A stretch of DNA of 34,269 bases from NCBI GenBank assembly GCA_014730185.1, contig WJIP01000129.1, positions 1 to 34,269 on the forward strand. Reading direction: 5' to 3'. The position numbers and the translations under genes are program-made. Source of the DNA: Caldithrix sp. (GTDB taxonomy: Bacteria > Calditrichota > Calditrichia > Calditrichales > Calditrichaceae). Below, one piece after another: positions 11,990 through 29,692 of this stretch; position 1 is the first letter of the stretch, and every line of letters starts with the position of its first letter. Below the pieces are notes generated by a model that was not told where the DNA came from, did not search any database, and saw only the letters and a program-made list of their open reading frames with translations.

Positions 11990-13870
11990 ATGATTAAAGG
12001 CATTAACAACGGCAATATAGCCGATTATATTCGAACAATAGAGCTTTTTCGTGATCTAACGGATAATGAAATCGAAATACTAATGAATGAGATCGAGGAG
12101 GAGCATTACCAAACGGGACAGTTCCTGTTTAAGGAAAACATGCCTCGGGAAAAGTTGTTTTTAATATATCAGGGCGAAATTGAATTACTCAAAAAATCGG
12201 CGTTGGGAGAGGAAAAGCGTCTCGGAATTTTTAAAACCTATGATTTTTTAGGTGAAGGCGCTCTGATGGATGCCTACCCGCATTCAACATCGTCGCGGGC
12301 TTTAGTAGATACAAAGGTTTTTGTCCTCAAAGCTAAAAAATTCACAAAATTATTTGAGAACCAGCCTGCTTTGGCGGGGAAAATTCTGGCTCATGTGGCC
12401 AGGGTTATCTCCCGGAGAATGCGTCAGACAACTTCTCAGGTGGTTGACATTGCCGCGCAATACATTTCCGGGCGAACCCGACAGGAACATGATTTATTGG
12501 GCGAGCGCTATGTTCCCCACGAATATTATTATGGCATCCAAACATTAAGGGCGCTGGAAAATTTCAGTATAAGCGGCGTTCCGCTTATGCATTTTCCTCT
12601 ACTTATAGAATCTCTGGCCATGGTTAAGATGGCGGCGGCAAAAGCTAACCTGGAAATTGGATTGTTAAGCAAGCCGGTGGCTAATGCCATCATCCAGGCC
12701 TGTACAGAAATTATGAATGGAAAATTTCATACCCAGTTTGTTGTGGATATGATTCAGGGAGGAGCAGGCACATCCACTAATATGAATGCCAATGAAGTGA
12801 TTGCCAACAGGGCGCTGGAAATATTGGGATATGAAAAAGGACAGTATACGCATTGTCATCCCAATAACCATGTTAATTTATCTCAATCAACCAATGATGT
12901 GTATCCCACTGCCCTTAAAATTGCTTTAATCAACAGCAATCGAAAACTTACTGGTGTTTTAAAAGATTTGGTAGACGCCATCCGGCAAAAAGCGGACACG
13001 TTTAAAGATATAATCAAAATGGGTCGTACACAGCTTCAGGATGCTGTACCAATGACTCTTGGACAGGAATTCGGGGCATACGCCGCTACTTTGCAGGAGG
13101 AAATTGAACGTCTACAAGTAAATGCGGATTTATTTCTTGAAGTCAATCTGGGCGGCACAGCTATAGGAACAGGCATCAACGCAGATCCAAAGTACAGCGT
13201 CCTCGCCATTGATTATCTGAAAACGATTTCCAAATTAAATGTAAAATTAGCTCCGGATTTAGTGGAAGCAACCCAGGATACAGGGGCTTTTGTGATGTAT
13301 TCCTCTGCCCTGAAACGATTGGCTATCAAACTTTCAAAAATGTCCAGTGATTTACGGTTGTTATCTTCCGGTCCCCGCGCCGGTTTTCACGAAATTAATT
13401 TGCCGAAAATGCAGCCGGGTTCATCCATAATGCCGGGTAAGGTTAATCCTGTGATACCGGAAGTCGTCAATCAAATTACCTATAAAGTTATTGGTAACGA
13501 TTTAACGGTTTCAATGGCCGCCGAGGCGGGCCAACTGGAACTGAATGTAATGGAACCGATCATTGCTCAGAGTATATTCGAATCCATTGAAATGCTTAAA
13601 AACGGTATGGCCACACTCCATCAGCGTTGTATAGAGGGTATTACAGCGAATGAAGCCCGTACGCGACAAATGGTGGAAAACAGTATCGGTCTGGTGACGG
13701 CCCTGAATCCGGTGCTGGGTTACGAGGTTTGTAGTTCTTTGGCCAGCGAAGCCCTGCAAGCGGACAAGAGTGTATACGATTTGGTGTTACAAAAAAAACT
13801 ATTAACCAAAGAAGAACTGGATCGATTGATATTACCGGAAAATATGATCGGACCCAACCGTCTAAAATAA
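11990..13870 (+). CDS. aspA: Cyclic nucleotide-binding-like domain fused to aspartate ammonia-lyase
   Basis: This 626-residue protein has two parts. Residues about 12-145 form a CRP/FNR-type effector domain (FRDLTDNEIE, then the beta-roll with FLGEGALMDAYPHSTSSRAL near 86-104) without any helix-turn-helix. Residues about 162-626 are a full aspartase: DLLGERYVPHEYYYGIQT near 168-184, QSTNDVYPTA at 299-308, and the flexible catalytic loop GSSIMPGKVNP at 477-487. The text IGNDLTVSMAAEAGQLELN near 501-519 is much closer to AspA than to fumarase. The reaction is L-aspartate to fumarate plus ammonia, reversible. Glu is kept in the phosphate cassette (GEG), but the position of CRP Arg82 is His98, so cAMP binding is doubtful and another ligand is possible. 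AGGAAGG precedes the ATG. The next genes use aspartate and release fumarate. Confidence 0.9.
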   Translation: MIKGINNGNIADYIRTIELFRDLTDNEIEILMNEIEEEHYQTGQFLFKENMPREKLFLIYQGEIELLKKSALGEEKRLGIFKTYDFLGEGALMDAYPHSTSSRALVDTKVFVLKAKKFTKLFENQPALAGKILAHVARVISRRMRQTTSQVVDIAAQYISGRTRQEHDLLGERYVPHEYYYGIQTLRALENFSISGVPLMHFPLLIESLAMVKMAAAKANLEIGLLSKPVANAIIQACTEIMNGKFHTQFVVDMIQGGAGTSTNMNANEVIANRALEILGYEKGQYTHCHPNNHVNLSQSTNDVYPTALKIALINSNRKLTGVLKDLVDAIRQKADTFKDIIKMGRTQLQDAVPMTLGQEFGAYAATLQEEIERLQVNADLFLEVNLGGTAIGTGINADPKYSVLAIDYLKTISKLNVKLAPDLVEATQDTGAFVMYSSALKRLAIKLSKMSSDLRLLSSGPRAGFHEINLPKMQPGSSIMPGKVNPVIPEVVNQITYKVIGNDLTVSMAAEAGQLELNVMEPIIAQSIFESIEMLKNGMATLHQRCIEGITANEARTRQMVENSIGLVTALNPVLGYEVCSSLASEALQADKSVYDLVLQKKLLTKEELDRLILPENMIGPNRLK

Positions 13871-13998: not shown

Positions 13999-14060
13999 TT
14001 AGCTTATTTTTTGTATGTTTAGCGCAAAAAATTAACCGTCTCTTTCACAGGAGCTTTTTG

Positions 14061-15560
14061 TTGCCAAAAAAGATAATTTATGAACCCTCCCGTACACTGA
14101 TGGAGTTCCGGTTGTTACCGGGCTTGACCACAAAAGAAACTGTACTTGAAAATATTTCACTGCGCGCTCCATTTGTTTACACGGAAACCGATGATCCCAA
14201 ATATTATTTAAACATACCCATGGTAGCGGCCGCCATGCAGTCCGTTTCGGGTGTAAATATGGCCATTGAGTTAGCCAAGTTGGGCGGGCAGGCTTTTATT
14301 TATTCTTCTCAGACACCCAAGCAGCAAGCAACCATGGTGGAAAAAGTTAAAAAACACAAAGCGGGATTTGTTGAACCGGAAACCGTCCCACCCGATATGT
14401 TGATTGCCGATCTGCACAATTTACGAAACCATCGTGGCTACAATACCTTTCCGGTGGTAGACAATGGAAGCCGCAAATTGCTGGGCGTTATCACCAAAAA
14501 CGATTATGATTATAAAATGCACGCCGACCAAAAAGTAGAAGAGCGCATGATAGCCCGCAAAGAACTGGTTGTGGGCGTGGAAATCGAAGATATTAAAGAA
14601 GCCAATAAAGTACTTAAAGAAAGCCATCAGTCGGTACTGCCCATTGTGGATGAGAAGGATAATCTGCGCTATCTCGTTTTTCGAAAGGACATCCGCAATC
14701 ATCTGGATAATCCGCTTGAAATTCTGGCCGAAAACAAAAGTTTGATGGTAACGGCCGCTATTAATACCCATGACTACGAGGATCGTGTGCCGGCGCTGGT
14801 GGAAGCGGGCGTCGATGTGCTGACCATTGATTCATCGGATGGCCACTCCACGTTCCAGCGCGATACCCTGCATTGGGTGAATAAAAATTATCCCCAGATA
14901 CCGGTCATTGGCGGAAATATTATTACAGCATCAGGTTTTGAATTTCTGGTGGAAGCCGGCGCCAAAGCGGTTAAAGTGGGTATGGGCGGGGGATCGATTT
15001 GCATTACTCAGGAGCAAAAAGGTACAGGACGCGGACTGGCCACAGCCATCATAAAAGTGGCTGAAGCCCGCGACCGCTATTACGAGGGAACAGGTAAATA
15101 CATACCTGTCATAGCCGATGGCGGTATCGTCAACTCCAAAGATGTGGTGGTTGCCCTGGCTATGGGCGCCGACTATGTAATGATGGGCCGTTATTTCGCC
15201 CGCATGGAAGAATCGCCGACGGAAAAAGTGACCATCAATAATTCCGTTATGAAACCGTACTGGGGAGAAGGCTCCTCCCGGGCCCGCGACTGGAAGAAGG
15301 CCCGCTACAATCAACTGCAGTTTGTCGAAGGGGTGGAAGGGTTCGTGCATTATTCAGGTAAACTGCGGGATAATCTGCCCGAAACCCTGTCAAAAATTAA
15401 AGCATCCATGTCGTCCGTGGGCGCCGCAACCATTGTCGAACTGCACGAACGGGCTGAGTTGGAAGTCGTATCCGCCCTTTCTATTCGCGAAGGTAAAGCC
15501 CACGATATTTACCTGCCCGGTAAAGACGCCGATTACAGTTCGATTAATTGGGGAGATTAA
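14061..15560 (+). CDS. guaB: IMP dehydrogenase (Tritrichomonas-like subtype), TTG start
   Basis: This is the NAD-dependent oxidation of IMP to XMP, the first step of the GMP branch. The barrel contains a CBS pair at about residues 105-220, the dinucleotide-site DSSDGHS at 257-263 and the catalytic loop GMGGGSICITQEQKGTGRG at 308-326 with nucleophile C314. The flap carries KPYWGEGSSRARDW at 398-411. That flap text and the C-terminal GKAHDIYL resemble the IMPDH of the protist Tritrichomonas foetus, a known bacterial-type subgroup, more than E. coli GuaB. The frame begins with two consecutive TTG codons (14058, 14061). AGGAG at 14049-14053 is seven bases from the second, so I use 14061. purA follows directly after the stop. 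Confidence 0.92.
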   Translation: MPKKIIYEPSRTLMEFRLLPGLTTKETVLENISLRAPFVYTETDDPKYYLNIPMVAAAMQSVSGVNMAIELAKLGGQAFIYSSQTPKQQATMVEKVKKHKAGFVEPETVPPDMLIADLHNLRNHRGYNTFPVVDNGSRKLLGVITKNDYDYKMHADQKVEERMIARKELVVGVEIEDIKEANKVLKESHQSVLPIVDEKDNLRYLVFRKDIRNHLDNPLEILAENKSLMVTAAINTHDYEDRVPALVEAGVDVLTIDSSDGHSTFQRDTLHWVNKNYPQIPVIGGNIITASGFEFLVEAGAKAVKVGMGGGSICITQEQKGTGRGLATAIIKVAEARDRYYEGTGKYIPVIADGGIVNSKDVVVALAMGADYVMMGRYFARMEESPTEKVTINNSVMKPYWGEGSSRARDWKKARYNQLQFVEGVEGFVHYSGKLRDNLPETLSKIKASMSSVGAATIVELHERAELEVVSALSIREGKAHDIYLPGKDADYSSINWGD

Positions 15561-16781
15561 ATGGCCAATTATATCGTATTGGGCGCGCAGTGGGGGGATG
15601 AAGGAAAAGGTAAGATTGTTGATTTGATTGCCGGCTATATGGATATGGTGGTACGCTTTCAGGGCGGCGCCAATGCCGGTCATACGGTTATCATTAACGA
15701 TGATGAATATGTCTTGCATTTGATCCCGGGGGGCATTGTTTCCGGTAAAGCGGTTAATATCATTGGTAACGGCTGCGTGGTCGATCCGTTGATCTTTGAT
15801 AAAGAGCGCCGCTATTTAAAAGATAAAGGGATTCCGGTTGCCCCGGATAAACTGATTGTATCCGATCAGGCTCATATTGTGACGCCCATGCATCGCCATC
15901 TCGATAAAATAATGAATAAAAAAATCGGTACCACAGGACGCGGTATCGGTCCGGCTTATGTGGATAAGGTCCAGCGAACCGGCATACGGGCCGGAGACAT
16001 ACTCAACGGTGCTTACGAACAAATATTCAATGAACAAATCCGCTATTATCAGAGAATGAGTGAGTGTATCTTCGAGGAACCGTTTATCGATATAAACGAA
16101 ATCAAGACGCAATTCGCGACCGCAGCCGATAAAATCAAACCGTTTATCGCCGATACGGTCAACGTCATTGCCGAAGCCGCCGTCAGACACCAAAACATCC
16201 TTTACGAAGGGGCGCAGGGGACGATGCTGGATGTGGATCACGGCTCCTATCCCTTTGTTACGTCGTCATCGACCACGATTGGCGGCGCATTTACGGGATC
16301 CGGGGTTTTTATGGATTTCGATAAACGCATCGGTGTGGTTAAGGCCTATACCACACGAGTGGGCGAGGGGCCATTTCCCACGGAACTGCACGATACGACC
16401 GGCGAACAACTGCGCAAAAACGGTCATGAATTCGGGGCCACTACCGGCAGACCGCGTCGTTGCGGATGGCTGGATTTGAAAGCTCTCAAACGCTCGTTCA
16501 TCAATAACGGATTCAATTATATTTCGCTGTCCAAAATCAGTTGCTTATCCGGATTCGATCAGGTGAAAGCTGCCGTTGATTATGATGCAGCCGGAAAGCC
16601 CGTCTATGAAACTTTTGATGGGTGGCAGCAGCCCATTGAGGGGCTTAAAAAAGAAGAGGATTTACCCGGTAATGCCCGGGCCTATATCGACTTTATAGAG
16701 TCGTATCTTAAAGTTCCGGTGGGCATGATTTCCACGGGGCCGGCGCGCGATCATATCATCATCAGGGATTTTTTATGGTAA
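15561..16781 (+). CDS. purA: Adenylosuccinate synthetase
   Basis: It joins IMP and L-aspartate with GTP to give adenylosuccinate, the first step of the AMP branch. At 406 residues it is a little shorter than the usual about 430. The GTP-binding loop GAQWGDEGKGK (residues 8-18) carries catalytic D13, and the GGANAGHT segment carries H41. GRPRRCGWLDLKAL near residue 296 and the C-terminal STGPARDHII are family signatures. The ATG follows the guaB stop immediately, with GGGGAGA upstream serving as ribosome site. The last seven bases overlap purM. Confidence 0.96.
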   Translation: MANYIVLGAQWGDEGKGKIVDLIAGYMDMVVRFQGGANAGHTVIINDDEYVLHLIPGGIVSGKAVNIIGNGCVVDPLIFDKERRYLKDKGIPVAPDKLIVSDQAHIVTPMHRHLDKIMNKKIGTTGRGIGPAYVDKVQRTGIRAGDILNGAYEQIFNEQIRYYQRMSECIFEEPFIDINEIKTQFATAADKIKPFIADTVNVIAEAAVRHQNILYEGAQGTMLDVDHGSYPFVTSSSTTIGGAFTGSGVFMDFDKRIGVVKAYTTRVGEGPFPTELHDTTGEQLRKNGHEFGATTGRPRRCGWLDLKALKRSFINNGFNYISLSKISCLSGFDQVKAAVDYDAAGKPVYETFDGWQQPIEGLKKEEDLPGNARAYIDFIESYLKVPVGMISTGPARDHIIIRDFLW

Positions 16782-17863
16782 ATAAGCAGAGCGGCGTTGA
16801 TATCGATCTGGGAAATAAATGCTCTCAAATTGCTTATGACTGGGCCAAAAAAACCTTCGCCAATCGTCCACCCGGCAGCGGCAATCCCATAATCGACGCC
16901 GACGGCGGCTTTGCCAATATTATGGATTTTAACGGCGTCAAGATTGGCATCTCCTCGGACGGCATCGGTACAAAAATAGAGCTGGCCGAACGCACGGGTA
17001 TTTATGATACGCTTGGATTCGACCTGGTAGCTATGGTTGCCGATGATCTGGCGGCCAACGGTTTGCAAACCGTTAACCTTTCCAATATTCTGGATGTGGA
17101 TTTCCTGGATGATACGATTGTGGATAAGCTGATGCAAGGCCTGCATGATGCGGCTGATTTTACCCGTATTACCTTAACCGGCGGCGAGATTGCAGAATTG
17201 GGTGAACGGATTGTTGGTTACGGAACAGATATGCATTTTAACTGGGGCGCTACCGCTATCGGTATTTTACCGGAAAATCGCCAACCTGTTGACGGCAGTG
17301 GTGCGGCCAAGGGCGACGCCATCATAACCTTACGAAGCCGGGGTTTTCGCAGTAACGGTTTCTCCCTGATAAGACGCATCATGAAGGATAGATTCGGCGC
17401 GGAATGGCATACCGCTTCCTTTGACGATAAAAATACCTGGGGTAGGTTACTGCTTACCCCGTCGCTGATATACACGCCCGGCGTCGTACAATTATTGAAT
17501 AACAATGCACAGGTAAATGGCATCGCCCATATAACAGGCGGCGGAATCTTCGATAATATGGCCAGAGTACTAAAACTTAATGGTCTGGGCGCCCGACTGG
17601 ATAATGTATTTCCACCCCATAAAATGATGCTGAACATGCAGGACATGGGGAAGGTTACGGAAGACAAAGCCTACCGTTTATGGAATATGGGCAATGGTAT
17701 GATGATTATTACACCGTCCACTGATGCGGACCGGGCTATCCGTATTTTACAGGAAGCAGACTACGATTGCCGGATAGCCGGAAATGTGACAGATGGCGCT
17801 GAAATCACGTTGTATTCCAAAGGCAAAGAGCCGCAAACATTGCACTATCGTTACGAATCATGA
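16775..17863 (+). CDS. purM: Phosphoribosylformylglycinamidine cyclo-ligase (AIR synthetase), divergent form
   Basis: This ATP-dependent enzyme closes the imidazole ring of FGAM to AIR. At 362 residues, it shows the PurM-type sequence SSDGIGTKIELAERTGIYDT at 60-79 and the DLVAMVADDLAANG stretch, followed by a C-terminal AIRS domain with RSNGFSLIRRIM and ITGGGIFDNMARV. The canonical GGETAEMPG is replaced by GGEIAELGER (136-145), and the N-terminus is extended by a DADGGFANIMDF segment, so this is a divergent branch of the family. The start overlaps purA and the stop overlaps the purL start (ATGA), a tight coupling. PurM acts directly after PurLQ. Confidence 0.88.
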   Translation: MVNKQSGVDIDLGNKCSQIAYDWAKKTFANRPPGSGNPIIDADGGFANIMDFNGVKIGISSDGIGTKIELAERTGIYDTLGFDLVAMVADDLAANGLQTVNLSNILDVDFLDDTIVDKLMQGLHDAADFTRITLTGGEIAELGERIVGYGTDMHFNWGATAIGILPENRQPVDGSGAAKGDAIITLRSRGFRSNGFSLIRRIMKDRFGAEWHTASFDDKNTWGRLLLTPSLIYTPGVVQLLNNNAQVNGIAHITGGGIFDNMARVLKLNGLGARLDNVFPPHKMMLNMQDMGKVTEDKAYRLWNMGNGMMIITPSTDADRAIRILQEADYDCRIAGNVTDGAEITLYSKGKEPQTLHYRYES

Positions 17864-20800
17864 GAAAGGGGATTGTGCAAAGTCCAACGATAAATCATAT
17901 TCAATTGGTCAAAAAAGAAAATGTTGCGGACACTCTGGCGGACCAGGTCCAGGAAAGTGCGCTCAAGTATTTCCGTATTGATCCCGGAAAGACAAAAAGC
18001 GGTAAGATTTTTACTATTGTACAACCCGTTTCCGAGCATTACATCCGGGACTTTGCCTATCAGTCGCTGCAGGATACAATAATTCATGATGTATACATCA
18101 ACCGGCTATATCAGAGTGATCAATACCAGAGTTACCTTTTGATCGCCAAACTTCCCGGCCTCACCGATGACGAGGGCATTTCGGCTCAGAAAGCTTTTAT
18201 TGATTTACTTAATCCACAGGATGTTCCGGACACCCAATGGATATTTACCCAGGATATTTTTTATTTTGAACAGGCTTTGACTGAATCTCAGTTGCAGCAA
18301 CTGGCCGAGGAATTATTGGGCAATCCGCTTGTAAACCATTTTGAATATGGTTCTTTTAACGGGACGGTGCAGTATACACCGGATGTGCGCTTACATACCA
18401 GCGATGATGTACAGAGCATAGACGTCAATGTACCGAATGAACAACTGCAGCAACTGTCCAGAGATCTGTTACTGGCGCTGGATTTGAAGGAAATGCAAGC
18501 CATCAAAAACCATTTTGCAAACCAGGAAACCATCCGCGCCCGCAAGGACAGAGGATTATCGGCAATGCCCACCGATTGTGAACTGGAAGTCCTGGCTCAA
18601 ACCTGGTCTGAGCATTGTAAACACAAGGAATTTAATGCGCTCATCACCTATACCGATCGGCACAGCGGCGAAGTTAAAACGATCGATTCGCTGTTTAAAA
18701 CCTACATCAAACGTTCCACGGATATGATCAGTAAACGGCTAGAAAAAGCGGGCCAACATTGGTTGTTGAAAGTATTCTCCGATAACGCCGGCGTTGTGCG
18801 CATTAATCAGGATAAGGTGTTTATCTGGAAGGTGGAAACGCATAATAGTCCGTCCGCTCTCGATCCTTATGGCGGCGCCCTGACCGGCATTGTGGGTGTA
18901 AACCGCGATCCCCTCGGTACGGGAATCGGTGGTGGCAAACTGCTGTTCAATACCGATGTTCTCTGTTTTGGTCCTCCCGATTATCAAAAAACATTGCTGC
19001 CCGGGCAACTCCATCCCCGGCGGATCATGTCCGGTGTGATTAAGGGCATTGAGGACGGTGGTAATAAATCCGGCATCCCCACCGTCAACGGCTCCGTCGT
19101 ATTTGATGACCGTTTTGCCGGCAAACCGCTGGTATTTTGCGGAACGGGCGCGGTTATGCCTGCTCGCTATAACGGCCGAAACAGCTGGGATAAAATAATC
19201 GATCCCGGCGACCGCATCATAATGGCCGGCGGCCGCGTGGGTAAAGACGGCATACACGGAGCTACCTTTTCGTCCCTGGAAATTGGCGATCACTCACCGC
19301 GCTCAGCTGTGCAAATCGGCAGTCCCATCACCCAAAAAAATATGTCCGATTTTATGGAAAGAGCGGCTGCCGCCAATTGGATCAAATCGTCAACCGATAA
19401 CGGAGCCGGCGGCTTGTCATCATCCATCGGGGAACTGGCCCGTATACCGGGGGGCGCCGTAGTGGAATTGGATCGCGTTCCTCTCAAATATGCCGGTTTG
19501 AAACCGTGGGAAATTTTTGTGTCCGAATCGCAGGAACGCATGACTTTGGTTATCGATCCGCATTATGCGGATGAGCTCTTTGAGCTGGCCGGTGAATTTG
19601 AAGTGGAGCTGTCCGATATCGGTTATTTTACGGATGAAGGGTTTTTACAGGTTTTGTACGATCAAAAGACCATTGCCTGGCTTGATCTTGATTTTTTACA
19701 TGATGGGGTACCCAAAAAACAATTAACGGCCGAATGGCAAAAACCGCAATTGAGCGAACCCAAACTGCCCGAAATTACCGATTATAATGATATCCTGATG
19801 CGTCTGCTTGGTCGTTTTAATATCCGTTCCCGTGAAGACATCATTCGTCGCTACGATCATGAAGTTAAGGGTAAAACCATTATTAAACCCCTGATGGGTA
19901 GGCACGGCTATGCGCCTCAGGATGCGGCCGTGATGCGTATTGATTTTGATAGCCATGAAGGATTGTTGATTTCCAACGGCATTAAACCGCGCATCGGCGA
20001 TATCGATCCCTATCAAATGTCGGCCAATGCTTTTGATGAAGCGGTGCGCAGTATAATTTCCGTAGGCGGACGCTTGCCGGACCTGGAGAACGGCCATGAC
20101 CTGTTCTGGACGGTTAATGATAATTTTTGTGTACCGGATTCGGTGTATCATCCGCAAAACAATCCCGACGGAAAAATTAAATTAGCCAAACTGGTGCAAA
20201 TGAACGAAGCCCTTTACGACATGGCTACCTTTTTTAATATTCCTATGACCTCCGGAAAAGACAGTATGAAAAATGATTTTATCCGCGGGGGAACGAAAAT
20301 ATCGGTGCCGCCGACCATATTGTATTCCATGGTAGCCCAAACCAATGATTATCGCCAAACCGTAACGGCGGAATTTAAGGCGTCCGGCGACCTGATTTAT
20401 GTGGTGGGGCAAACTTATAATGAACTGGGCGCATCGGAATTCTATCAATTGTTCGAAGCGCTTGGCGCCCATGCGCCCCGGGTGCGACCGCAGGAAGCCC
20501 TGCGGGTGTATACCAAAATGATGCGCGCCCACACCGACAATTTGCTGGCTTCCTCCCATGATATTTCCGATGGCGGTTTGGCTGTGGCCCTGGCGGAGGC
20601 TCTGTTTGGCGGGCAGTTCGGCGCTGATATAAAACTGCACGAAACCCGGTTACCGGGATATGCTCAGCTGTTTTCCGAGTCGCCGTCCCGTTTTGTGGTT
20701 TCGGTTACGCCCCAAAAACAGCAGGCCTTCGAAGCCGTTTTCGGAGAGGATTGTCATAAAATAGGTCGCCTTACGCAAGAACCGCGTTTAAAGCTATCGC

Positions 20801-20874
20801 TGGGAGATCAACCGCTTATTGATATCCAAGTGGACCAATTGTTAAACGCCTGGCGTGCGGGGCTGGAGGTGTAA
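17860..20874 (+). CDS. purL: Phosphoribosylformylglycinamidine synthase, PurS-PurL type large subunit without glutaminase domain
   Basis: With PurQ it converts FGAR to FGAM using glutamine and ATP. At 1004 residues it lies between small PurL (about 740) and the fused enzyme (about 1295). Residues 1-180 look like a PurS-like N-terminal region (IAKLPGLTDDEGISAQKAFIDLL at 95-117). The linker holds TWSEHCKHKEF at 248-258, and the duplicated AIRS core begins with VETHNSPSALDPYGG at 325-339. The separate glutaminase is encoded by the next gene, whose ATG overlaps this stop by one base. No separate purS is present, as expected if that domain is built in. A GTG at 17875 is an alternative start, but its ribosome site would be too close. 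Confidence 0.93.
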   Translation: MRKGIVQSPTINHIQLVKKENVADTLADQVQESALKYFRIDPGKTKSGKIFTIVQPVSEHYIRDFAYQSLQDTIIHDVYINRLYQSDQYQSYLLIAKLPGLTDDEGISAQKAFIDLLNPQDVPDTQWIFTQDIFYFEQALTESQLQQLAEELLGNPLVNHFEYGSFNGTVQYTPDVRLHTSDDVQSIDVNVPNEQLQQLSRDLLLALDLKEMQAIKNHFANQETIRARKDRGLSAMPTDCELEVLAQTWSEHCKHKEFNALITYTDRHSGEVKTIDSLFKTYIKRSTDMISKRLEKAGQHWLLKVFSDNAGVVRINQDKVFIWKVETHNSPSALDPYGGALTGIVGVNRDPLGTGIGGGKLLFNTDVLCFGPPDYQKTLLPGQLHPRRIMSGVIKGIEDGGNKSGIPTVNGSVVFDDRFAGKPLVFCGTGAVMPARYNGRNSWDKIIDPGDRIIMAGGRVGKDGIHGATFSSLEIGDHSPRSAVQIGSPITQKNMSDFMERAAAANWIKSSTDNGAGGLSSSIGELARIPGGAVVELDRVPLKYAGLKPWEIFVSESQERMTLVIDPHYADELFELAGEFEVELSDIGYFTDEGFLQVLYDQKTIAWLDLDFLHDGVPKKQLTAEWQKPQLSEPKLPEITDYNDILMRLLGRFNIRSREDIIRRYDHEVKGKTIIKPLMGRHGYAPQDAAVMRIDFDSHEGLLISNGIKPRIGDIDPYQMSANAFDEAVRSIISVGGRLPDLENGHDLFWTVNDNFCVPDSVYHPQNNPDGKIKLAKLVQMNEALYDMATFFNIPMTSGKDSMKNDFIRGGTKISVPPTILYSMVAQTNDYRQTVTAEFKASGDLIYVVGQTYNELGASEFYQLFEALGAHAPRVRPQEALRVYTKMMRAHTDNLLASSHDISDGGLAVALAEALFGGQFGADIKLHETRLPGYAQLFSESPSRFVVSVTPQKQQAFEAVFGEDCHKIGRLTQEPRLKLSLGDQPLIDIQVDQLLNAWRAGLEV

Positions 20875-21716
20875 TGACGGATGGGGTGAGAGCTCTGGTG
20901 GTAACGGGTTACGGCATCAATTGCGAAGAAGAGATGGCTGCCGCTTATCGGATGGCCGGGGCCGAAGCAAAAATAGTCCATTTGAACGAAATTTTTTCCG
21001 GGCAATACCGCTTACAGGATTATCAGATTCTCAATTTTCCGGGTGGATTTTCTTTCGGCGATGATTTGGGGGCGGCCAAGGTATTGAGCAATAAAATTAA
21101 ATATAAAAAAACAGTCCGCGGCCATTATCTGATTGATGAAATAGGCAAATTCATCAGTGACGGCAATTATATCCTGGGGGTCTGCAATGGCTTTCAGGCT
21201 CTGGTTAAAATGGGCATTTTACCCAATATCGGCAAAAACTTTGACCAGGAAGCAACCATTACGTTCAATAATTCGGGCCGTTTCGAAGATCGCTGGGTAA
21301 CCTGCGGGGTTAACCCACAATCTGAAAGTTCTTTTTTAAACGATCTTAAATTGCTGGAATTACCGGTGCGCCATGGCGAAGGTAAACTTTTGTTTAAGAA
21401 TGAGGATATTGCCCGGAGCGTAGTGCAAAACCACTTGAATACGTTGAGTTATGTGGATGAACAGGGTAAGCCGACGCCTCATTATCCACAGAACCCCAAC
21501 GGTTCGCAATTGAACTGCGCTGGTCTGGTGGATGAAAGCGGCCAGATTTTTGGTTTGATGCCCCATCCCGAAGCCTTTCTGTCGCTTTATAATCATCCCA
21601 ATTGGGGCTGGCTGAAACGGCATCAAACGGAACCGGACGAAGAGGGCCAGGGACTACAGATATTCAAAAACATCGTGCAAGCGGTTGCACAAAGCGAATA
21701 TTTTGTACAGCCGTAA
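20874..21716 (+). CDS. purQ: Phosphoribosylformylglycinamidine synthase, glutaminase subunit
   Basis: This class I amidotransferase supplies ammonia to PurL. At 280 residues it is longer than Bacillus PurQ (about 227) and resembles the glutaminase domain of fused FGAM synthase. The triad is present: nucleophile C104 in GVCNGFQALV, and H231 and E233 in MPHPEAF. FPGGFSFGDDLGAAK at 55-69 is the oxyanion-side signature. PurL plus PurQ adds to 1284 residues, close to the single-chain enzyme. It closes the first purine block; a palindromic element and 229 bases separate it from purH. Confidence 0.95.
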   Translation: MTDGVRALVVTGYGINCEEEMAAAYRMAGAEAKIVHLNEIFSGQYRLQDYQILNFPGGFSFGDDLGAAKVLSNKIKYKKTVRGHYLIDEIGKFISDGNYILGVCNGFQALVKMGILPNIGKNFDQEATITFNNSGRFEDRWVTCGVNPQSESSFLNDLKLLELPVRHGEGKLLFKNEDIARSVVQNHLNTLSYVDEQGKPTPHYPQNPNGSQLNCAGLVDESGQIFGLMPHPEAFLSLYNHPNWGWLKRHQTEPDEEGQGLQIFKNIVQAVAQSEYFVQP

Positions 21717-21783
21717 ATGACAAGCTGTTCGTTGAAATGAGGTTAGTCTTAAGCACGAAGAGCATTGGGAATCCATAAAATTT

Positions 21784-21843
21784 GACCTTCCACCTTTCAT
21801 CCCCTCCCTAATGCATTAGGGAGGGAGAAAGTGGGGGTGGGTC
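21784..21843. repeat. G/C-rich palindromic element, copy 1 (purQ-purH gap)
   Basis: The core at 21802-21825 is a perfect 24-base palindrome: CCCTCCCTAATG followed by its reverse complement CATTAGGGAGGG. The flanks (GACC at 21784, GGTC at 21840) extend it as an imperfect inverted repeat of about 60 bases. It shares a GACCC-CCCC-CTTTC-CCC-CCCT pattern with the element at 29775-29823. There is no T-tract, so it is not a standard terminator. It could be a REP/MITE-like unit. Confidence 0.7.
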
Positions 21844-21850
21844 AGTTATT

Positions 21851-21877
21851 ATAAATTACAGAATCAATGTAATTTAT
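21851..21877. promoter_or_regulatory. 9-bp inverted repeat upstream of purH, candidate operator
   Basis: ATAAATTAC at 21851-21859 and GTAATTTAT at 21869-21877 are perfect inverted halves with a 9-base spacer, centred about 80 bases before the purH ATG. The arrangement suits a dimeric repressor for the second purine block. No regulator gene in the window is linked to it. Confidence 0.35.
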
Positions 21878-21945
21878 TACACCTTGCTGAGTAAACGACA
21901 TATTCAATAAAACAAATTGTTAGTTAGCAAAAGGATACGGTCGAT

Positions 21946-23562
21946 ATGAACCAACCTGTTAAAATTAAGCGTGCCCTGATCAGCGTCTCCGATAAAAGTG
22001 GTTTGGATTCTTTAGCTAAAGCATTGCACCATCAGGGCTGTGAAATCATTTCCACCGGCGGTACCCAAAAGGTCATCGAAGAAAACCAAATTCCCGTAAC
22101 CGATATTAATCGGGTTACCGGCAATCCGGAGGCTTTTGGCGGAAGGATGAAAACCATTTCCTTTCAGATTGAATCGGCTCTTCTGTTCGATCGGGATACG
22201 GATAAGAAAGAAGCCGACGCCCTCGGCATTCAGCCTATTGATCTGGTGGTTTGCAATTTGTATCCCTTTGAACGGGTCAAAAACCGGGGTGCGGATTTTG
22301 AAACATTAATTGAAAACATTGATATCGGCGGGCCGACCATGATCCGGGCAGCAGCAAAAAATTTTAAATACGTTACCGTGGTTACGGATCCCCGCGACTA
22401 TGAAGAATTGATCGATGTCCTGCAGAAAAATGATGGACAGGTACCTTATGAATTCCGCTTTAAGGCCATGCGCAAAGCCTACAATCTGACAGCGGATTAT
22501 GACAGCATGATCGCTTCCACTATGGATGAAACGGCCGGCGCCCAAAGTATGCGCATGGCCTACGGTGAAGCCAGAACACTGCGTTACGGTGAAAACAGCC
22601 ATCAGAACGGATTATTTCTGCGCAAACAAGGGGCCGTAGATGCCTTATACGATCTGCAAGCGCTGCACGGCAAAGAACTGTCGTTCAATAATATCGTGGA
22701 TATTTACAGTGCGCTTGATTCCGTACGCGACCTGCAGAATCACGGTTGTGCCATCATCAAACATAATAATCCCTGCGGATTGGCTGCGGGCGACAATCAA
22801 CGTACGGTATTCGAACGGGCCTGGGCCGGCGATCCGGTGTCCGCTTTCGGTTCGGTGATCGCCTTCAATCGCACTGTGGAACTGGATACGGCCCGGTTTC
22901 TGCAACTGGATAATGAAGATAAAATGCAACGTAAATTTGTGGAAGTGGTTGTGGCCCCGGATTTTAATGAAGATGCTAAACAGTACCTGTTCCGGCATAC
23001 AAATTTACGTGTGGTTAAATTCGATCCGGACAATCTGCAGCAGGAATGGGATATCAAATTTTTTGCCGGTTCCCTGCTCGTGCAAAATGCGGATCGCCAA
23101 CTTTACGATAAAAAAGAATGGGTCACCGATTCCGAAGGATCTATTGATGAGGATTTATTAACATTTGGTTTAATCGCCGCACGTCAGCTCAAATCCAATG
23201 CCATCGCAGTAGTGCGCAGGACCGAAGAGGGTATTCTGCAATTGCTGGGTATGGGCTGCGGCCAGCCCAACCGGGTCAATTCCACAGAATTAGCTTTAAG
23301 GCGCTGCCATGATAATCTAAAAATGGAATTTGAGGGCGACCGCCAGGCGTTGCTGGAATATGTGAAAACGGAAGTCAATAATGCGGTTTTAATATCCGAC
23401 GCTTTTTTTCCGTTTCCGGATAATATCGAACTGGCCGCTAAATTTGACATCAAAACCATTGTTCAGCCGGGCGGTTCCATTCGCGATAAAGCGGTTATTC
23501 AGCGTTGTAATGAGCTGGGTATACAAATGATGTTTACCGGCATTCGCCATTTTAAACATTGA
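21946..23562 (+). CDS. purH: Bifunctional AICAR transformylase / IMP cyclohydrolase, variant cyclohydrolase loop
   Basis: It carries out the last two steps to IMP: formylation of AICAR by 10-formyl-THF, then ring closure. At 538 residues, the N-terminal cyclohydrolase (about 1-200) begins SVSDKSGLDSLAKAL and keeps GGRMKT at 65-70 and VVCNLYPFE. The usual LHPKIHGG after KT is replaced by ISFQIESALLF. The transformylase half has the catalytic K272-H273 pair in IKHNNPCGLAAG, and SAFGSVIAFN, so it looks active. AAGGA precedes the ATG by about 11 bases. It is the first gene of the second purine block, after a gap with a palindrome and a possible operator. Confidence 0.93.
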   Translation: MNQPVKIKRALISVSDKSGLDSLAKALHHQGCEIISTGGTQKVIEENQIPVTDINRVTGNPEAFGGRMKTISFQIESALLFDRDTDKKEADALGIQPIDLVVCNLYPFERVKNRGADFETLIENIDIGGPTMIRAAAKNFKYVTVVTDPRDYEELIDVLQKNDGQVPYEFRFKAMRKAYNLTADYDSMIASTMDETAGAQSMRMAYGEARTLRYGENSHQNGLFLRKQGAVDALYDLQALHGKELSFNNIVDIYSALDSVRDLQNHGCAIIKHNNPCGLAAGDNQRTVFERAWAGDPVSAFGSVIAFNRTVELDTARFLQLDNEDKMQRKFVEVVVAPDFNEDAKQYLFRHTNLRVVKFDPDNLQQEWDIKFFAGSLLVQNADRQLYDKKEWVTDSEGSIDEDLLTFGLIAARQLKSNAIAVVRRTEEGILQLLGMGCGQPNRVNSTELALRRCHDNLKMEFEGDRQALLEYVKTEVNNAVLISDAFFPFPDNIELAAKFDIKTIVQPGGSIRDKAVIQRCNELGIQMMFTGIRHFKH

Positions 23563-23601
23563 TAAAGTTGACATATTTCCAATAAGGAATTAGGAGGCCT
23601 A

Positions 23602-24987
23602 ATGAATTGTTTAACGACAATTATCACCCCTCAAATTGAAAAAATCCATTCCGGAAAGGTGCGGGAAAGTTTTCGTATCGATGAAAATACCCGTATGATT
23701 GTGGCAACCGACCGCATTTCCAGCTTCGATAAGGTGCTGGATACGCCCATTCCCGGCAAAGGGGCGGTTTTGAATAAATTAGCCGCCTATTGGTTCAAAG
23801 AAACCAAAGATATTATCGAAAATCATTTTGTCGAAGTTATTGATCCAAACATTTCGCTGGTCAGGGAAGCCACGCCTATCCGTGTGGAAATGATTGTAAG
23901 GGGCTATATGACCGGTTCGGCATGGCGCAGCTATCAGCAGGGCAAACGCACGGTTTCGGGAGTACAAATTCCCGACGGTATGAAAAAGAACCAGGCCTTC
24001 GATGAACCCATTGTAACCCCGACCACCAAAGAAGAAAGCGATCGCGAAATTTCCGCTAAAGAGCTGGTGGAAGAAGGATGGGTGTCGGCCGAAATTTATA
24101 AGGCCATGGAAAAGACCTCCTTAAAATTGTTTAAGCACGGCCAGGCAGTGCTCAAAGAACGGGGCATTATTCTAGTGGATACCAAATACGAGTTTGGCCT
24201 GATCGATAATAAACTGGTTTTGATTGATGAAATTCATACGCCGGATTCTTCGCGGTTCTGGTCCGCTGAAAATTACGAGACTGAGCCCGATAACGCCGAA
24301 CAACTGGATAAAGAATATGTGCGCAGCTATCTGTTGAAACACAAAAAAGACGGCGCTTATCCCAACACGTTACCCAATGATGTGGTGCAGGAAACCACCC
24401 GTCGGTATCGGGATATTTATGGTATGATTACCGGTGAAGTCCTGCCCGAAATCGATAACAATACCCGTAGCCGGGTCCATGCCAATCTGGTCCGGCATAA
24501 ATTGATCAAAGACGGTTTTGTGGCTATTATCATGGGTTCACCTTCGGATCTGGATCATTGCAATAAAATGAAAGACATCATGGAGCAGTACGATATTATG
24601 GTTGATTTAAGGGTGGTATCAGCGCACAAAAACGGGGAAAATCTGGGCCAAGTCATTAAAGAATATAACAATTCCATCGAACCGGCCGCCATAATAGCGG
24701 TTGCCGGTCGATCTAATGGTCTGGGCGGTGCTCTGGCAGCCAACGTCACAGTACCAGTGATCAACTGTCCGCCGTTTAAGGATAAAACCGATCAAATGGT
24801 CAACATCAATTCCTCTTTGATGATGCCGTCCAATACGCCGGCGGTTACGGTGGTCGATCCTAAGAATGCGGCCATGGCCGCATTGCGCACCCTCAATCTG
24901 CCGCGACTTAAGACGCGGTTCGAAGAAGAAATCAATGAAATGAAATCGGAGTTAAAAGCAGCCGATAAACGGGTAAGGGGCCGTTAA
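23602..24987 (+). CDS. purC/purE: Fused SAICAR synthetase (PurC) and class II AIR carboxylase (PurE)
   Basis: One 461-residue chain carries two consecutive pathway steps. Residues 1 to about 290 are a PurC of the long, yeast Ade1-like type: SGKVRESF at 17-24, RGYMTGSAWRSY at 100-111, DTKYEFGLID at 193-202 and TPDSSRFW at 213-220. Residues about 305-461 are PurE: IMGSPSDLDHC at 310-320, SAHK at 340-343 and AGRSNGLGG at 368-376. The GRSNGLG form is that of class II enzymes (animal PAICS, Treponema), which carboxylate AIR with CO2, instead of the AGGAAH form of class I mutases. That agrees with no purK in the cluster. AGGAGG lies just before the ATG. purB, the next step, begins four bases after the stop. 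Confidence 0.93.
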   Translation: MNCLTTIITPQIEKIHSGKVRESFRIDENTRMIVATDRISSFDKVLDTPIPGKGAVLNKLAAYWFKETKDIIENHFVEVIDPNISLVREATPIRVEMIVRGYMTGSAWRSYQQGKRTVSGVQIPDGMKKNQAFDEPIVTPTTKEESDREISAKELVEEGWVSAEIYKAMEKTSLKLFKHGQAVLKERGIILVDTKYEFGLIDNKLVLIDEIHTPDSSRFWSAENYETEPDNAEQLDKEYVRSYLLKHKKDGAYPNTLPNDVVQETTRRYRDIYGMITGEVLPEIDNNTRSRVHANLVRHKLIKDGFVAIIMGSPSDLDHCNKMKDIMEQYDIMVDLRVVSAHKNGENLGQVIKEYNNSIEPAAIIAVAGRSNGLGGALAANVTVPVINCPPFKDKTDQMVNINSSLMMPSNTPAVTVVDPKNAAMAALRTLNLPRLKTRFEEEINEMKSELKAADKRVRGR

Positions 24988-24990
24988 TTC

Positions 24991-26355
24991 ATGGAAAACG
25001 CCATTTCCCCACTGGATGGTCGGTACGCTTCCAAGCTCTCTCATTTTGGCGCCTATTTTTCGGAATATGCGCTGATGCGGTGGCGGGTTATCATCGAGCT
25101 GCGGTTCGTTAAAGCACTGAATGAAACCGGCCTGTTCCGGGCATTAAGTGCTGAGGAATTGAAATGCACCGATGCGCTGGAAAATAATTTTGACGCTCAT
25201 CATTACCAACAGATTAAAACCATCGAGGAACGAATCAATCACGATGTGAAAGCGGTGGAGGAATTTCTGCGCCAAAATCTTAACCTAAAGCAGAAAAATA
25301 TGATCCACTTTGGCTTAACCTCCGAGGATGTAAATAATCTGGCCTACACCGGCATGTTGCAGGCTTACGTTCATGAACAACAGATTCCCCGGCTAAAAGC
25401 TTTTATGGAAGAGCTGATGAACAAAACCGGCGGCTGGTGTGATCAGCCCTTTCCGGCGCGTACGCACGGACAAGTTGCTTCGCCTTCCACGGGCGGGAAA
25501 GAAATGGCTGTTTTCTTATCCAGACTGCTGGTGCAATATCAGGCTCTGCAAACCCTGCGTTTCAAAGGGAAACTCAACGGCGCTACCGGTAATTATTCCG
25601 CCTTAACCGCCGCCTTTCCCCATTTTGACTGGATAGCATTTTCGAACCGGTTTATTGAAAGCCTGAACATGGAAACCAATCCCGTAACGACGCAAATCGA
25701 AGATCACGATGCCTGGAGCGCCTATTTTGCGGTTTGCAGGCGGATCAATAATATTTTGCTCGATTTTGATCGTGATATTTGGTTCTATTTGACGCTGGGC
25801 TATTTAACCTTATCCACCGATACGCAATCAGTGGGATCGTCGACTATGCCTCATAAAGTGAATCCGATCAATTTTGAAAACAGTGAGGGCAACCTGCAGG
25901 TGGCCAATGGTTTACTGTCCACTCTGATGGATAAATTCGGAACATCCCGGCTGCAGCGCGATTTGTCGGACAGCACGGTTGAACGAAATATAGGGGTAGC
26001 GCTGGCCCATGGAGACCTGGCTCTGCAGGAGTCCATGAAAGGCCTGAAGCGTTTGCAAATTAATACCGCCCGATGTGACGCCGAATTGGATCAATTTCCG
26101 GAGCTGCTGGCGGAACCCATACAAACCATACTGCGTCGGGAAGGAGTGGACGATCCCTACATGCTGCTAAAGGAACTGACCCGCGGTAAACGCATCGACC
26201 GGCAGGGATTGCATCAATTTATTGATAATCTGCAGCTGCCGGATAAAGTAAAAGAGGAACTCAAGGCCCTCAATGTGCGCACGTATATCGGAAAAGCGCC
26301 GGAAATCTGTAAGCAGACGGTGAACCGGGCGCAACAAATTTTGAACACAACTTAA
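24991..26355 (+). CDS. purB: Adenylosuccinate lyase
   Basis: It splits SAICAR to AICAR and adenylosuccinate to AMP, releasing fumarate each time. The 454-residue length and the opening SPLDGRYASKL match the E. coli PurB subgroup closely. Key segments are RINHDVKAVE at 81-90, the catalytic RTHGQ with H159, the flexible serine loop SSTMPHKVNP at 283-292 and ELTRGKR near the end. It lies three bases after purC/E and 13 bases before purD, so it is clearly in the same transcript. Confidence 0.97.
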   Translation: MENAISPLDGRYASKLSHFGAYFSEYALMRWRVIIELRFVKALNETGLFRALSAEELKCTDALENNFDAHHYQQIKTIEERINHDVKAVEEFLRQNLNLKQKNMIHFGLTSEDVNNLAYTGMLQAYVHEQQIPRLKAFMEELMNKTGGWCDQPFPARTHGQVASPSTGGKEMAVFLSRLLVQYQALQTLRFKGKLNGATGNYSALTAAFPHFDWIAFSNRFIESLNMETNPVTTQIEDHDAWSAYFAVCRRINNILLDFDRDIWFYLTLGYLTLSTDTQSVGSSTMPHKVNPINFENSEGNLQVANGLLSTLMDKFGTSRLQRDLSDSTVERNIGVALAHGDLALQESMKGLKRLQINTARCDAELDQFPELLAEPIQTILRREGVDDPYMLLKELTRGKRIDRQGLHQFIDNLQLPDKVKEELKALNVRTYIGKAPEICKQTVNRAQQILNTT

Positions 26356-26368
26356 CATTGAGCATGAT

Positions 26369-27613
26369 ATGAATATAGCGGTTATCGGATCAGGTGGCAG
26401 AGAACATGCCATAGCCTGGAAACTTAAACAGTCGCCAAAGGTTAGCCAGGTATTTGTCTTGCCGGGAAACGGTGGTACGGAAAACAATGTGCCGATGGAT
26501 ATTCAAGATTTTGCCGCCGTCAAACGATGGTGCACAGACGAACAGATCGGTCTGGTGTTTGTCGGGCCGGAGGATCCTCTGACCCAGGGAATCGTGGATG
26601 CCTTTAAAAACACTCCCATCCGTGTATTCGGTCCGGACCGGTCGGCGGCCCGGCTGGAAGGCTCGAAAATATTTGCCAAGCGTTTTATGCAACAATACGG
26701 CGTGGCCACAGCCTCTTTTAAGGAATTTGACAGCCTGGATAACGCCCGTCAAAAAATCCGGGATATGAAGGGTCGGTTGGTGGTCAAATACGATGGACTG
26801 GCCGGGGGCAAGGGCGTTACCGTATGTTCCGCGGTTCAAGAAGCTGAACAGGCCATTAAACAAATCAAGAACAAATATGGTCCGGAGGCCCGGTTTATCA
26901 TTGAGGAGCGGTTAACGGGACGGGAAGTTTCGGTAATCGGTTTTACGGACGGCAGGCACATCCAATTACTGGCGCCTTCTCAGGATCACAAACCGGTCTA
27001 TGAAGGTGACACCGGACCCAATACCGGCGGAATGGGTGCTTATTGCCCGGTTCCGTTCCTTGATGAGGCCCTGATGCAGACGATTAGAGAAACGGTTGTC
27101 GAACCCACCCTAAAAGGCATTCAGGCGGAAAATATGGATTATAAGGGCGTCATCTATTTCGGATTGATGCTGACGGAGACGGGCCCCAGCCTTCTGGAAT
27201 ATAATGTGCGTTTCGGCGACCCGGAGACGGAGGTGATTCTGCCCGCTATGCAAACCGATCTGTTTGAACTCACCATGGCATGCTTTGATCATCAGCTCAA
27301 GGAACTGACCATGACATTTAACAAGGGTTACTGGGTGGATGTGGTTTTGGTCTCCGGAGGCTACCCCGGTGCTTATGAAAAAAGCAAACCCATTAACGGC
27401 CTGGACGATGTGCCGGAAGATATCCTGGTTTTTCATGCCGGTACCCGACGGGAACACAACCATTTGTTGACCAGCGGCGGCCGGGTACTGAATGTGGTGG
27501 GATGCGGCCAAAATTTACAGCAGGCCATAAATAATACCTATCAGGCCGTCGATCAAATACATTTTGAAAATAAATATTACCGGCCGGATATCGGGAAAAA
27601 AGGATTGCAATAA
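26369..27613 (+). CDS. purD: Phosphoribosylamine--glycine ligase (GAR synthetase)
   Basis: This ATP-grasp enzyme joins phosphoribosylamine and glycine, the second step of the pathway. At 414 residues, the N-terminal Rossmann-like domain starts GSGGREHAIAWKL (8-20), the glycine-rich ATP loop is KYDGLAGGKGV (140-150), and the family signatures GDTGPNTGGMGAY and VRFGDPETEVILP are intact. It is a stand-alone enzyme, unlike the eukaryotic PurD-PurM-PurN fusion. The ribosome site is weak. The gene sits between purB and purN on one strand with short gaps. Confidence 0.97.
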   Translation: MNIAVIGSGGREHAIAWKLKQSPKVSQVFVLPGNGGTENNVPMDIQDFAAVKRWCTDEQIGLVFVGPEDPLTQGIVDAFKNTPIRVFGPDRSAARLEGSKIFAKRFMQQYGVATASFKEFDSLDNARQKIRDMKGRLVVKYDGLAGGKGVTVCSAVQEAEQAIKQIKNKYGPEARFIIEERLTGREVSVIGFTDGRHIQLLAPSQDHKPVYEGDTGPNTGGMGAYCPVPFLDEALMQTIRETVVEPTLKGIQAENMDYKGVIYFGLMLTETGPSLLEYNVRFGDPETEVILPAMQTDLFELTMACFDHQLKELTMTFNKGYWVDVVLVSGGYPGAYEKSKPINGLDDVPEDILVFHAGTRREHNHLLTSGGRVLNVVGCGQNLQQAINNTYQAVDQIHFENKYYRPDIGKKGLQ

Positions 27614-27658
27614 CATAAATTGTACGATTAAACGGTTTAAATTTGAATATGAATTAAA

Positions 27659-28240
27659 ATGCGAAAAAAACGAATAGCCATCCTAATTTCGGGTACCGGC
27701 AGCAATATGGCTGCCATTGTTAAAGAAACGCAAAACGGTATATTAAAGGATGTATGCCGGGTTGAGCTGGTTCTGTCCAATAAATATTCGGCCAAAGGTC
27801 TGCAAACGGCCGGGGAACTGGGCGTGCCTACTAAAGTGGTACCATCGAAAGGTAAGGAACGGGAAAACTATGATCGGGAAGTACTGCAGGTTTTGGAACC
27901 GTATCAACCGGATTATATAGTGCTGGCCGGCTTTATGCGGATTCTCAGTCCCGTATTCATTCGAGCCTATAAAAATCGCATCATCAATATACATCCCGCG
28001 GATACCCGGCAATTTCAAGGCGTGGGTGGCTACGAATGGGCCTTTGAAAACGGATTGCAGGAAACCTGCATTACCGTGCATTATGTGGATGAAGGCGTTG
28101 ATACCGGCCCGATTATCGGCCAGAAAAAAGTCGATTTAAGGGGTGCGCATTCCGTTGATGAAGTCAAAGCCCGGGGCTTGCCGATTGAACATTCATTTTA
28201 CAGCGAGGTATTAAAGGATGTATTTTCCAAAAACATTTAA
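27659..28240 (+). CDS. purN: Phosphoribosylglycinamide formyltransferase, folate-dependent
   Basis: It transfers a formyl group from 10-formyl-THF to GAR, the third step. At 193 residues, the nucleotide-binding start SGTGSNMAAI (11-20) and the catalytic trio N110, H112 and D148 (IINIHPADTRQF and EGVDTGPII) are present. The common HPSLLPAFPG is changed to HPADTRQFQG, a variant of the substrate loop. Because PurN is present, formate-using PurT is not required. A 45-base gap follows purD; the leader before the ATG is A/T-rich with no clear ribosome site. Confidence 0.95.
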   Translation: MRKKRIAILISGTGSNMAAIVKETQNGILKDVCRVELVLSNKYSAKGLQTAGELGVPTKVVPSKGKERENYDREVLQVLEPYQPDYIVLAGFMRILSPVFIRAYKNRIINIHPADTRQFQGVGGYEWAFENGLQETCITVHYVDEGVDTGPIIGQKKVDLRGAHSVDEVKARGLPIEHSFYSEVLKDVFSKNI

Positions 28241-28258
28241 TCAGGATGAGGTGATACA

Positions 28259-29692
28259 ATGTGTGGTATAATAGGAGTGGTGGGTTATAATGATGTCAAT
28301 ACGGAGATCATTAACGGTCTGACCACCTTACAACATAGAGGACAGGATTCCGCCGGTTTGGTAACGTTCGATGGAAATTTCCATTTAAAAAAGGGCAGCG
28401 GGTCTGTAGGTACGGTGTTTAAAAATATAAATCTGAATAGCGTACGCGGTAATTATGGTTTGGGACACGTGCGTTATTCAACCATCGGCTCCACGGATGA
28501 AGTGGATGCCCAGCCCATTGCCGTCAATTACCCCTTTGGCATTGCTATGGTGCACAACGGCAATGTGATTAATTTTGTGGAGCTGCGTAAAAAATTGTAC
28601 GAAGAGCACCACCGGCTGTTGGATACATCCAATGATGTGGCTTTGATATTGTACACGTTTGCTTCCATTCTGGAAGGCAAGGATCTTAAAAATCTTAAAG
28701 TGAACGATATTTTCGATACGGTAGAAGAGGTGCAAAAAAATGTTAAGGGGGCATTCTCGGCCATTACCATCATTGCCAATCGGGGCTTTCTGGCGTTTAC
28801 CGATCCCTACGGCATTCGTCCGCTGGTAATGGGCCGTAAGTATACGGACCAAGGGGTGGTGTACGCCTTCGCTTCCGAAAGTACCACATTTGATTATCTG
28901 GGTTATGAACTGGTGCGTGATCTGAAACCGGGAGAAATGTTGTTTGTTGATAAAAACCGTAACATTCATACGCGCATCGGTAAAACAAAAAAACAGGCCT
29001 TTTGTGTGTTCGAATACATTTACTTTGCCCGCGAAGATTCCGTTATTCATGACCGGCTGGTGGCCAGCGAACGGGTACGTATGGGACGTAAACTGGCCGA
29101 AACATTTGATCGATCCGGTCTGAAGCCGGACATCATCATCGATGTGCCCAACTCGGCTTACTTCTTTGCCTCGGCCATGGCCGAAACCATGGGCGTGCCC
29201 TATCGGCGGGGTCTGGCCAAGAATCATCACATGGGCCGCAGTTTTATTACACCCAATCAGAAAGAACGGGAAAAGATGGTGAAGCAGAAATTAAATCCCA
29301 TTCGCGATATTGTGAAGGGCCGAAAAGTAGCGGTTGTTGATGATTCCATCGTTCGGGGCACCACTTCCAAACACATTGTTCAACTATTGCGCGATTACGG
29401 GGCAAAGAAAGTATATTTTGTTTCGGCCGCCCCGCCCATCAAACATCCCTGTATCTACGGCATTGATATGTCGGTTAAAAAGGAGATTCTGGCCTCCCAT
29501 TATAACTCCGATGAAATCGCCAAATTTATCGGCGCCGATGCCGTGATCTATCAGAATCTGGACGATATTAAAGAGCTATACAAAGATTTACCGATCTGCC
29601 ACGCCTGTTTTTCAGGTGAATATCCTACGGGCATAACCAATGAATTGCTGGATGAGATCGAACAGGAAAAATTGGGTTCCAATCGGGTGTGA
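28259..29692 (+). CDS. purF: Amidophosphoribosyltransferase, Fe-S type
   Basis: This is the committed first step: PRPP plus glutamine gives phosphoribosylamine. At 477 residues, the N-terminal nucleophile is C2 (MCGIIGVVGY), exposed after Met removal and without the propeptide seen in Bacillus PurF. The phosphoribosyltransferase loop is VAVVDDSIVRGTTSKH (358-372). Four cysteines at C249 (FCVFEYIYFARED), C398 (KHPCIYGID) and C447/C450 (ICHACFSGEYPT) match the [4Fe-4S] ligands of the Bacillus-type enzyme, implying oxygen sensitivity. GAGGTGAT precedes the ATG. It is the last gene of the second purine block. Confidence 0.97.
   Translation: MCGIIGVVGYNDVNTEIINGLTTLQHRGQDSAGLVTFDGNFHLKKGSGSVGTVFKNINLNSVRGNYGLGHVRYSTIGSTDEVDAQPIAVNYPFGIAMVHNGNVINFVELRKKLYEEHHRLLDTSNDVALILYTFASILEGKDLKNLKVNDIFDTVEEVQKNVKGAFSAITIIANRGFLAFTDPYGIRPLVMGRKYTDQGVVYAFASESTTFDYLGYELVRDLKPGEMLFVDKNRNIHTRIGKTKKQAFCVFEYIYFAREDSVIHDRLVASERVRMGRKLAETFDRSGLKPDIIIDVPNSAYFFASAMAETMGVPYRRGLAKNHHMGRSFITPNQKEREKMVKQKLNPIRDIVKGRKVAVVDDSIVRGTTSKHIVQLLRDYGAKKVYFVSAAPPIKHPCIYGIDMSVKKEILASHYNSDEIAKFIGADAVIYQNLDDIKELYKDLPICHACFSGEYPTGITNELLDEIEQEKLGSNRV

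Follow-up and report, generated by a model that had tools for sequence, protein, structure and literature searches.

A purC-purE fusion in a purine operon

The window, by which we mean the whole stretch of 34,269 nucleotides analysed here, comes from a MAG of the Calditrichaceae (Calditrichota) that comprises 398 contigs and is 96.5% complete. It contains a purine operon whose genes cover the route to IMP and the first branch steps. Neither purE nor purK occurs in it as a separate gene, and purF is followed by pyrC, pyrE, pyrF, pyrB and pyrI on the same strand. Between purH and purB lies a single gene, here termed purCE, in which purC and purE are joined. The features of the operon and of this gene are as follows.

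14058..29692, + strand: purine operon, guaB, purA, purM, purL, purQ, purH, purCE, purB, purD, purN, purF
23602..24987, + strand: purC-purE fusion ORF, 461 aa, predicted SAICAR synthetase and class II AIR carboxylase
23641..24348, + strand: PurC (SAICAR synthetase) domain, long type, residues 14-249 (the PRK12607 model covers 3-298)
24463..24519, + strand: join, residues 288-306, a helix at the PRK12607 C-terminal end and then about 7 residues to PurE
24520..24945, + strand: class II PurE (AIR carboxylase) domain, residues 307-448
24619..24633, + strand: SAHKN motif, a class II signature, residues 340-344
24703..24726, + strand: AGRSNGLG motif, a class II signature around the AIR and CO2 sites, residues 368-375

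The purCE frame runs from an ATG at 23602 to a stop codon ending at 24987, has a good ribosome-binding sequence (Shine-Dalgarno-like 'taggagg') just upstream of its start and is followed after 3 nt by the start of purB. Pfam searches of the protein identified SAICAR_synt at residues 14-249 (E 1.4e-69) and AIRC at residues 307-448 (E 6e-36), and PurC thus precedes class II PurE within a single chain, the order of animal PAICS, as the initial annotation had proposed. The match to PRK12607 extends over model positions 7-311 of 315 and ends at residue 298 of 461, while the first PurE strand of the structural model starts at residue 306, indicating that PurC and PurE are joined nearly end to end.

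Two further genes of the window lie upstream of the operon on the + strand. The first (10245-10883) is a 213-aa ORF with no Pfam match, located between a cydAB/cydCD block and an aspartase gene. The second is the aspartase gene itself (11990-13867), which encodes a cyclic-nucleotide-binding domain (38-124) fused to aspartate ammonia-lyase and whose product is possibly an allosterically regulated aspartase.

Class and subfamily of the two halves

The PurE half belongs to class II, and this part of the initial annotation was borne out. SAHK (340-343) and AGRSNGLG (368-375) are present in place of the class I text SAHR...GGAAH, and in a PurE tree that split class II from class I at 100/100 the PurE half of purCE fell inside class II. 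Its score of 110 bits against TIGR01162, the model for class I PurE (N5-CAIR mutase), lay below the curated cut-off of 149.6. The residues of the human PAICS AIR carboxylase (AIRc) active site and their roles have been described, with His303 as general base (PMC9376930); His342 of purCE corresponds to His303 and Lys343 to Lys304. Across 74 aligned fusions, M311, G312, S313 and D316, S340, A341, H342 and K343, and A368, G369, S371, N372, G373 and L374 were invariant, and all of these match the human AIRc pocket (PMC9376930). R370 was kept in 72 of the 74, V367 was replaced by isoleucine in some, and positions 314 and 315 were variable.

The PurC half contains the PF01259 domain and catalytic motifs of the long type, including DTKYEFG (193-199) and PDSSRFW (214-220); GKVR, TPTTK, DTKYEFG and DEIHTPDSSRFW were nearly invariant across the fusion alignment. 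It scored 347 bits against the PRK12607 PurC equivalog (NF009251), below the curated cut-off of 371. In the PurC tree, 32 fusions formed one clade (100/99) that grouped at 100/100 with standalone Bacteroidota PurC of the PRK12607 type and the purE-adjacent purC of Treponema, while yeast Ade1, Mycobacterium abscessus PurC and the standalone long PurCs of Calditrichota lay outside this group. Short PurC, PAICS included, was set apart from long PurC at 100/99. Grouping of the fusion PurC with animal PAICS was rejected (AU p 0.0008), as were a sister relationship with Ade1 (p 0.009) and descent from the long PurC of the phylum itself, which occurs as a standalone protein in three Calditrichota families (f4-f6; p 0.02). 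Neither Treponema nor Bacteroidota PurC was rejected as the nearer sister (p 0.49 and 0.39, respectively). The final tree omits four rows of another PurC type (L029, L030, L033 and L036) and the Spirochaetota PurC-like rows; in a first tree that included them, branch lengths reached 4-6 changes per site and one set was nested among the fusions, which we treated as long-branch artefacts. As the initial annotation had claimed, the PurC half is thus not of the shorter PAICS type. Its description as yeast Ade1-like holds for the long type and the shared motifs only, since sisterhood with Ade1 was rejected.

Animal PAICS (human 2h31 and 6yb8, invertebrate 4ja0) shares with purCE the domain order, the class II pocket residues and the dispensability of PurK, and the PurE halves are 38-42% identical; its PurC, however, is of the short type, only 25% identical to the long-type PurC of purCE and in a separate clade. 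The class II PurE of Treponema denticola (3rg8) is 40% identical to the PurE half, but in Treponema PurE and the adjacently encoded PurC are two proteins and both fall in clades separate from those of the fusion halves. Together with Treponema purC, the Bacteroidota PRK12607-type proteins are the closest PurC subfamily found (42-48% identity to the PurC half in four examples), but they are standalone, in genomes that mostly encode a standalone class I PurE and PurK. Yeast Ade1 and M. abscessus PurC (1a48 and 3r9r) are also of the long type and have DTK.EFG and TPDSSR.W in common with purCE but are likewise standalone.

An AlphaFold2 model of the purCE monomer, built from a 74-row alignment, had a mean pLDDT of 92.9 and a pTM of 0.88. 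In this predicted monomer, the fold of the PurC half best matched yeast SAICAR synthase (TMt 0.84) and that of the PurE half matched Treponema denticola class II PurE (about 0.80). Superposition of the whole chain on PAICS was poor (TM about 0.5, rmsd about 23 Å, for the monomer model only), which indicates that the relative placement of the domains differs in this model.

Distribution of the fusion and absence of purK

The fusion was found in 11 of 15 Calditrichaceae genomes (66-77% identity), one of which consists of one contig of 4.98 Mb and has a completeness rating of 100%. Within Calditrichota (40 genomes) it was limited to this family, and the other families have separate PurC and PurE. 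A scan of genomes from approximately 85,000 species yielded 80 loci that were kept, some of them ending at contig ends, and all 80 encoded a fusion with long-type PurC. This recurrence in independent genomes, the single-contig genome among them, rules out an assembly artefact. The carriers belong to Calditrichota, Neomarinimicrobiota (Fidelibacterota), Cloacimonadota, Bacteroidota, Chlorobiota/Ignavibacteriota, Armatimonadota, Spirochaetota, Riflebacteria, Wallbacteria, Fermentibacteria, Eisenbacteria, Myxococcota and others, about a dozen phyla in all. This count is a lower bound, because the class II-like motif patterns of the scan were derived from an alignment headed by purCE and favoured its family rather than sampling class II PurE as a whole. 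With few exceptions the carriers are MAGs, for which bin membership or labels may be wrong, and 'absent' is therefore never absolute in what follows.

Within the stretch examined, the order purL-purQ-purH-purCE-(purB)-purD-purN-purF recurred across the 80 loci, with purD as a neighbour in 68, purH in 61 and purN in 53. This recurrent gene order, combined with the mixed taxonomy of the carriers, suggests that the purine operon moved among phyla as a unit with purCE.

A search of the source genome for purK found none; of three weak matches to the purK model, two were judged by sequence to be biotin-carboxylase-like and the third D-Ala-D-Ala-ligase-like. The AIRC family had a single match in this genome, the fusion itself. 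Outside Calditrichota, purK was missing from 49 of 50 fusion genomes. The sole exception was an Opitutales MAG (L119/G049) with purK and class I purE side by side in addition to the fusion, whose contig is possibly misbinned. In the purK-less fusion genomes, the fusion was the only full-strength PurE and extra AIRC matches scored 19-63 bits, except in an Eisenbacteria MAG (G073), where AIRC matched two open frames as long as the fusion (463 and 468 aa, on C64 and C94), apparently two copies of it. For the Bacteroidota order of the Saprospiraceae carrier, purK was present in 0 of 3 fusion genomes versus 59 of 67 genomes with a standalone PurE (Fisher p 0.003).

The claim that a CO2-using AIR carboxylase explains the lack of purK was overstated, strong as the correlation is outside the phylum. 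In the sister families f2-f6 of Calditrichota, 22 genomes without purK encode a class I-like PurE (L067-L088) with GMAAHL or GLAAHL for GGAAHL, and thus CO2 use cannot be diagnosed from the absence of purK. A similarly scoring PurE, likewise with no purK over the cut-off, occurs in three genomes of Bacteroidota (G090, G095 and G100). These class I-like proteins possibly form a CO2-using or N5-CAIR-scavenging group. Only one of the 40 Calditrichota genomes had a purK over the cut-off (L037 and L066, on G032:C653); a canonical class I purE adjoins it, and the pair would represent either a recent transfer or contamination.

The source genome also has a second PurC-like gene.

G000:C326:1959-2630, - strand: second short PurC-like gene (L006), standalone, on another contig of the source genome

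This gene adjoins psd and pssA. Its motifs are altered, with GSRK for GK.K in the P-loop and DFQLQFG for the catalytic text DFKLEFG, making a role as a normal SAICAR synthetase doubtful. Throughout Calditrichota, relatives (L234-L244) are found at this position, their motifs variable and in part decayed, and in several genomes of families f3 and f6 a PurB-like gene lies upstream. The gene would be a relic or have acquired a new function.

Origin, function and meaning of the fusion

The 34 fusions in the PurE tree formed one clade (100/99), with PAICS and Treponema-type PurE each separate. As each half is monophyletic, one old fusion event fits the data. A potential precursor survives in Treponema-type loci (L186 and L187), where a long purC and a class II purE overlap by 4 nt (GTGA), the TGA of the former running into the GTG start of the latter, in the gene order of the fusion. 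We infer that purCE had a single origin from such an adjacent, overlapping purC-purE pair, in an event separate from the animal one. In two Spirochaetota loci (L190 and L191), the gene immediately after a class II purE, which it overlaps or abuts, encodes about 340 aa and resembles a very divergent PurC.

A competing account is that purCE and animal PAICS descend from the same ancestral fusion, with PurC later swapped for the long type. Domain order is identical in the two, and the PurE tree placed PAICS as sister of the fusion PurE, albeit weakly (88/61) and with a Treponema alternative that was neither rejected nor better (AU p 0.46); the PurE half alone may thus be sister to PAICS PurE. We nevertheless consider shared ancestry unlikely, as the PurC halves come from different subfamilies and the Treponema gene pair is a ready precursor that needs no swap. 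In separate trees, the two halves did not both group with PAICS, and the independence of the fusion, as put forward in the initial annotation, was supported by the position of its PurC in the long subfamily.

The purCE protein is very probably a bifunctional AIR carboxylase/SAICAR synthetase, a functional analogue of PAICS that arose by a single fusion and later spread with its operon. The class II PurE half would add CO2 directly to AIR, forming CAIR without ATP, PurK or N5-CAIR. The long-type PurC half would then combine CAIR with aspartate to give SAICAR at the cost of one ATP, and SAICAR would be cleaved by the product of purB, the gene just downstream. The protein may also channel CAIR between its halves and form an octamer. 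Spread of purCE with its purine operon would account for its presence in bacteria of about a dozen phyla.

The PurE half could instead be an N5-CAIR mutase that does not use CO2 and is fed by spontaneously formed N5-CAIR or by an unrecognised substitute for PurK. The purK-less sister families of Calditrichota offer a parallel, as do archaea with a class I-like PurE but no PurK, for which non-enzymatic formation of N5-CAIR has been proposed (PMC3261824). A mutase is, however, quite improbable given Lys343 and Arg370-Ser371-Asn372 in place of SAHR and GGAAH, and given the position of the PurE half inside the class II clade with Treponema denticola PurE, an enzyme that is cited as an AIR carboxylase in PMC9376930. 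It is extremely unlikely that the PurE half persists only as a structural remnant, with AIR converted to CAIR in another way, because its active site is invariant in 74 fusions and the source genome has no other AIRC-family gene.

A literature search, with most subscription journals outside its reach, turned up no description of a PurC-PurE fusion in bacteria, and no assayed enzyme of the purCE family was found. Beyond the bifunctional PAICS analogue proposed above, and much more tentatively, purCE could be a second, convergent invention of PAICS with a class II PurE core, long-type PurC arms arranged unlike those of PAICS and perhaps its own route for CAIR, spread across phyla in a self-sufficient operon that makes PurK dispensable to recipients.

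Automatic pathway calls could list purE and purK as absent although the operon is complete, because the PurE half scores below the curated cut-off. Most bacteria use PurK with class I PurE and animals use PAICS; this division would need correcting for a sizeable bacterial group. On the proposed origin, AIR carboxylase was joined to SAICAR synthetase at least two times in evolution, with PurC coming from different lineages. This suggests that keeping CAIR near PurC is worth something in itself.
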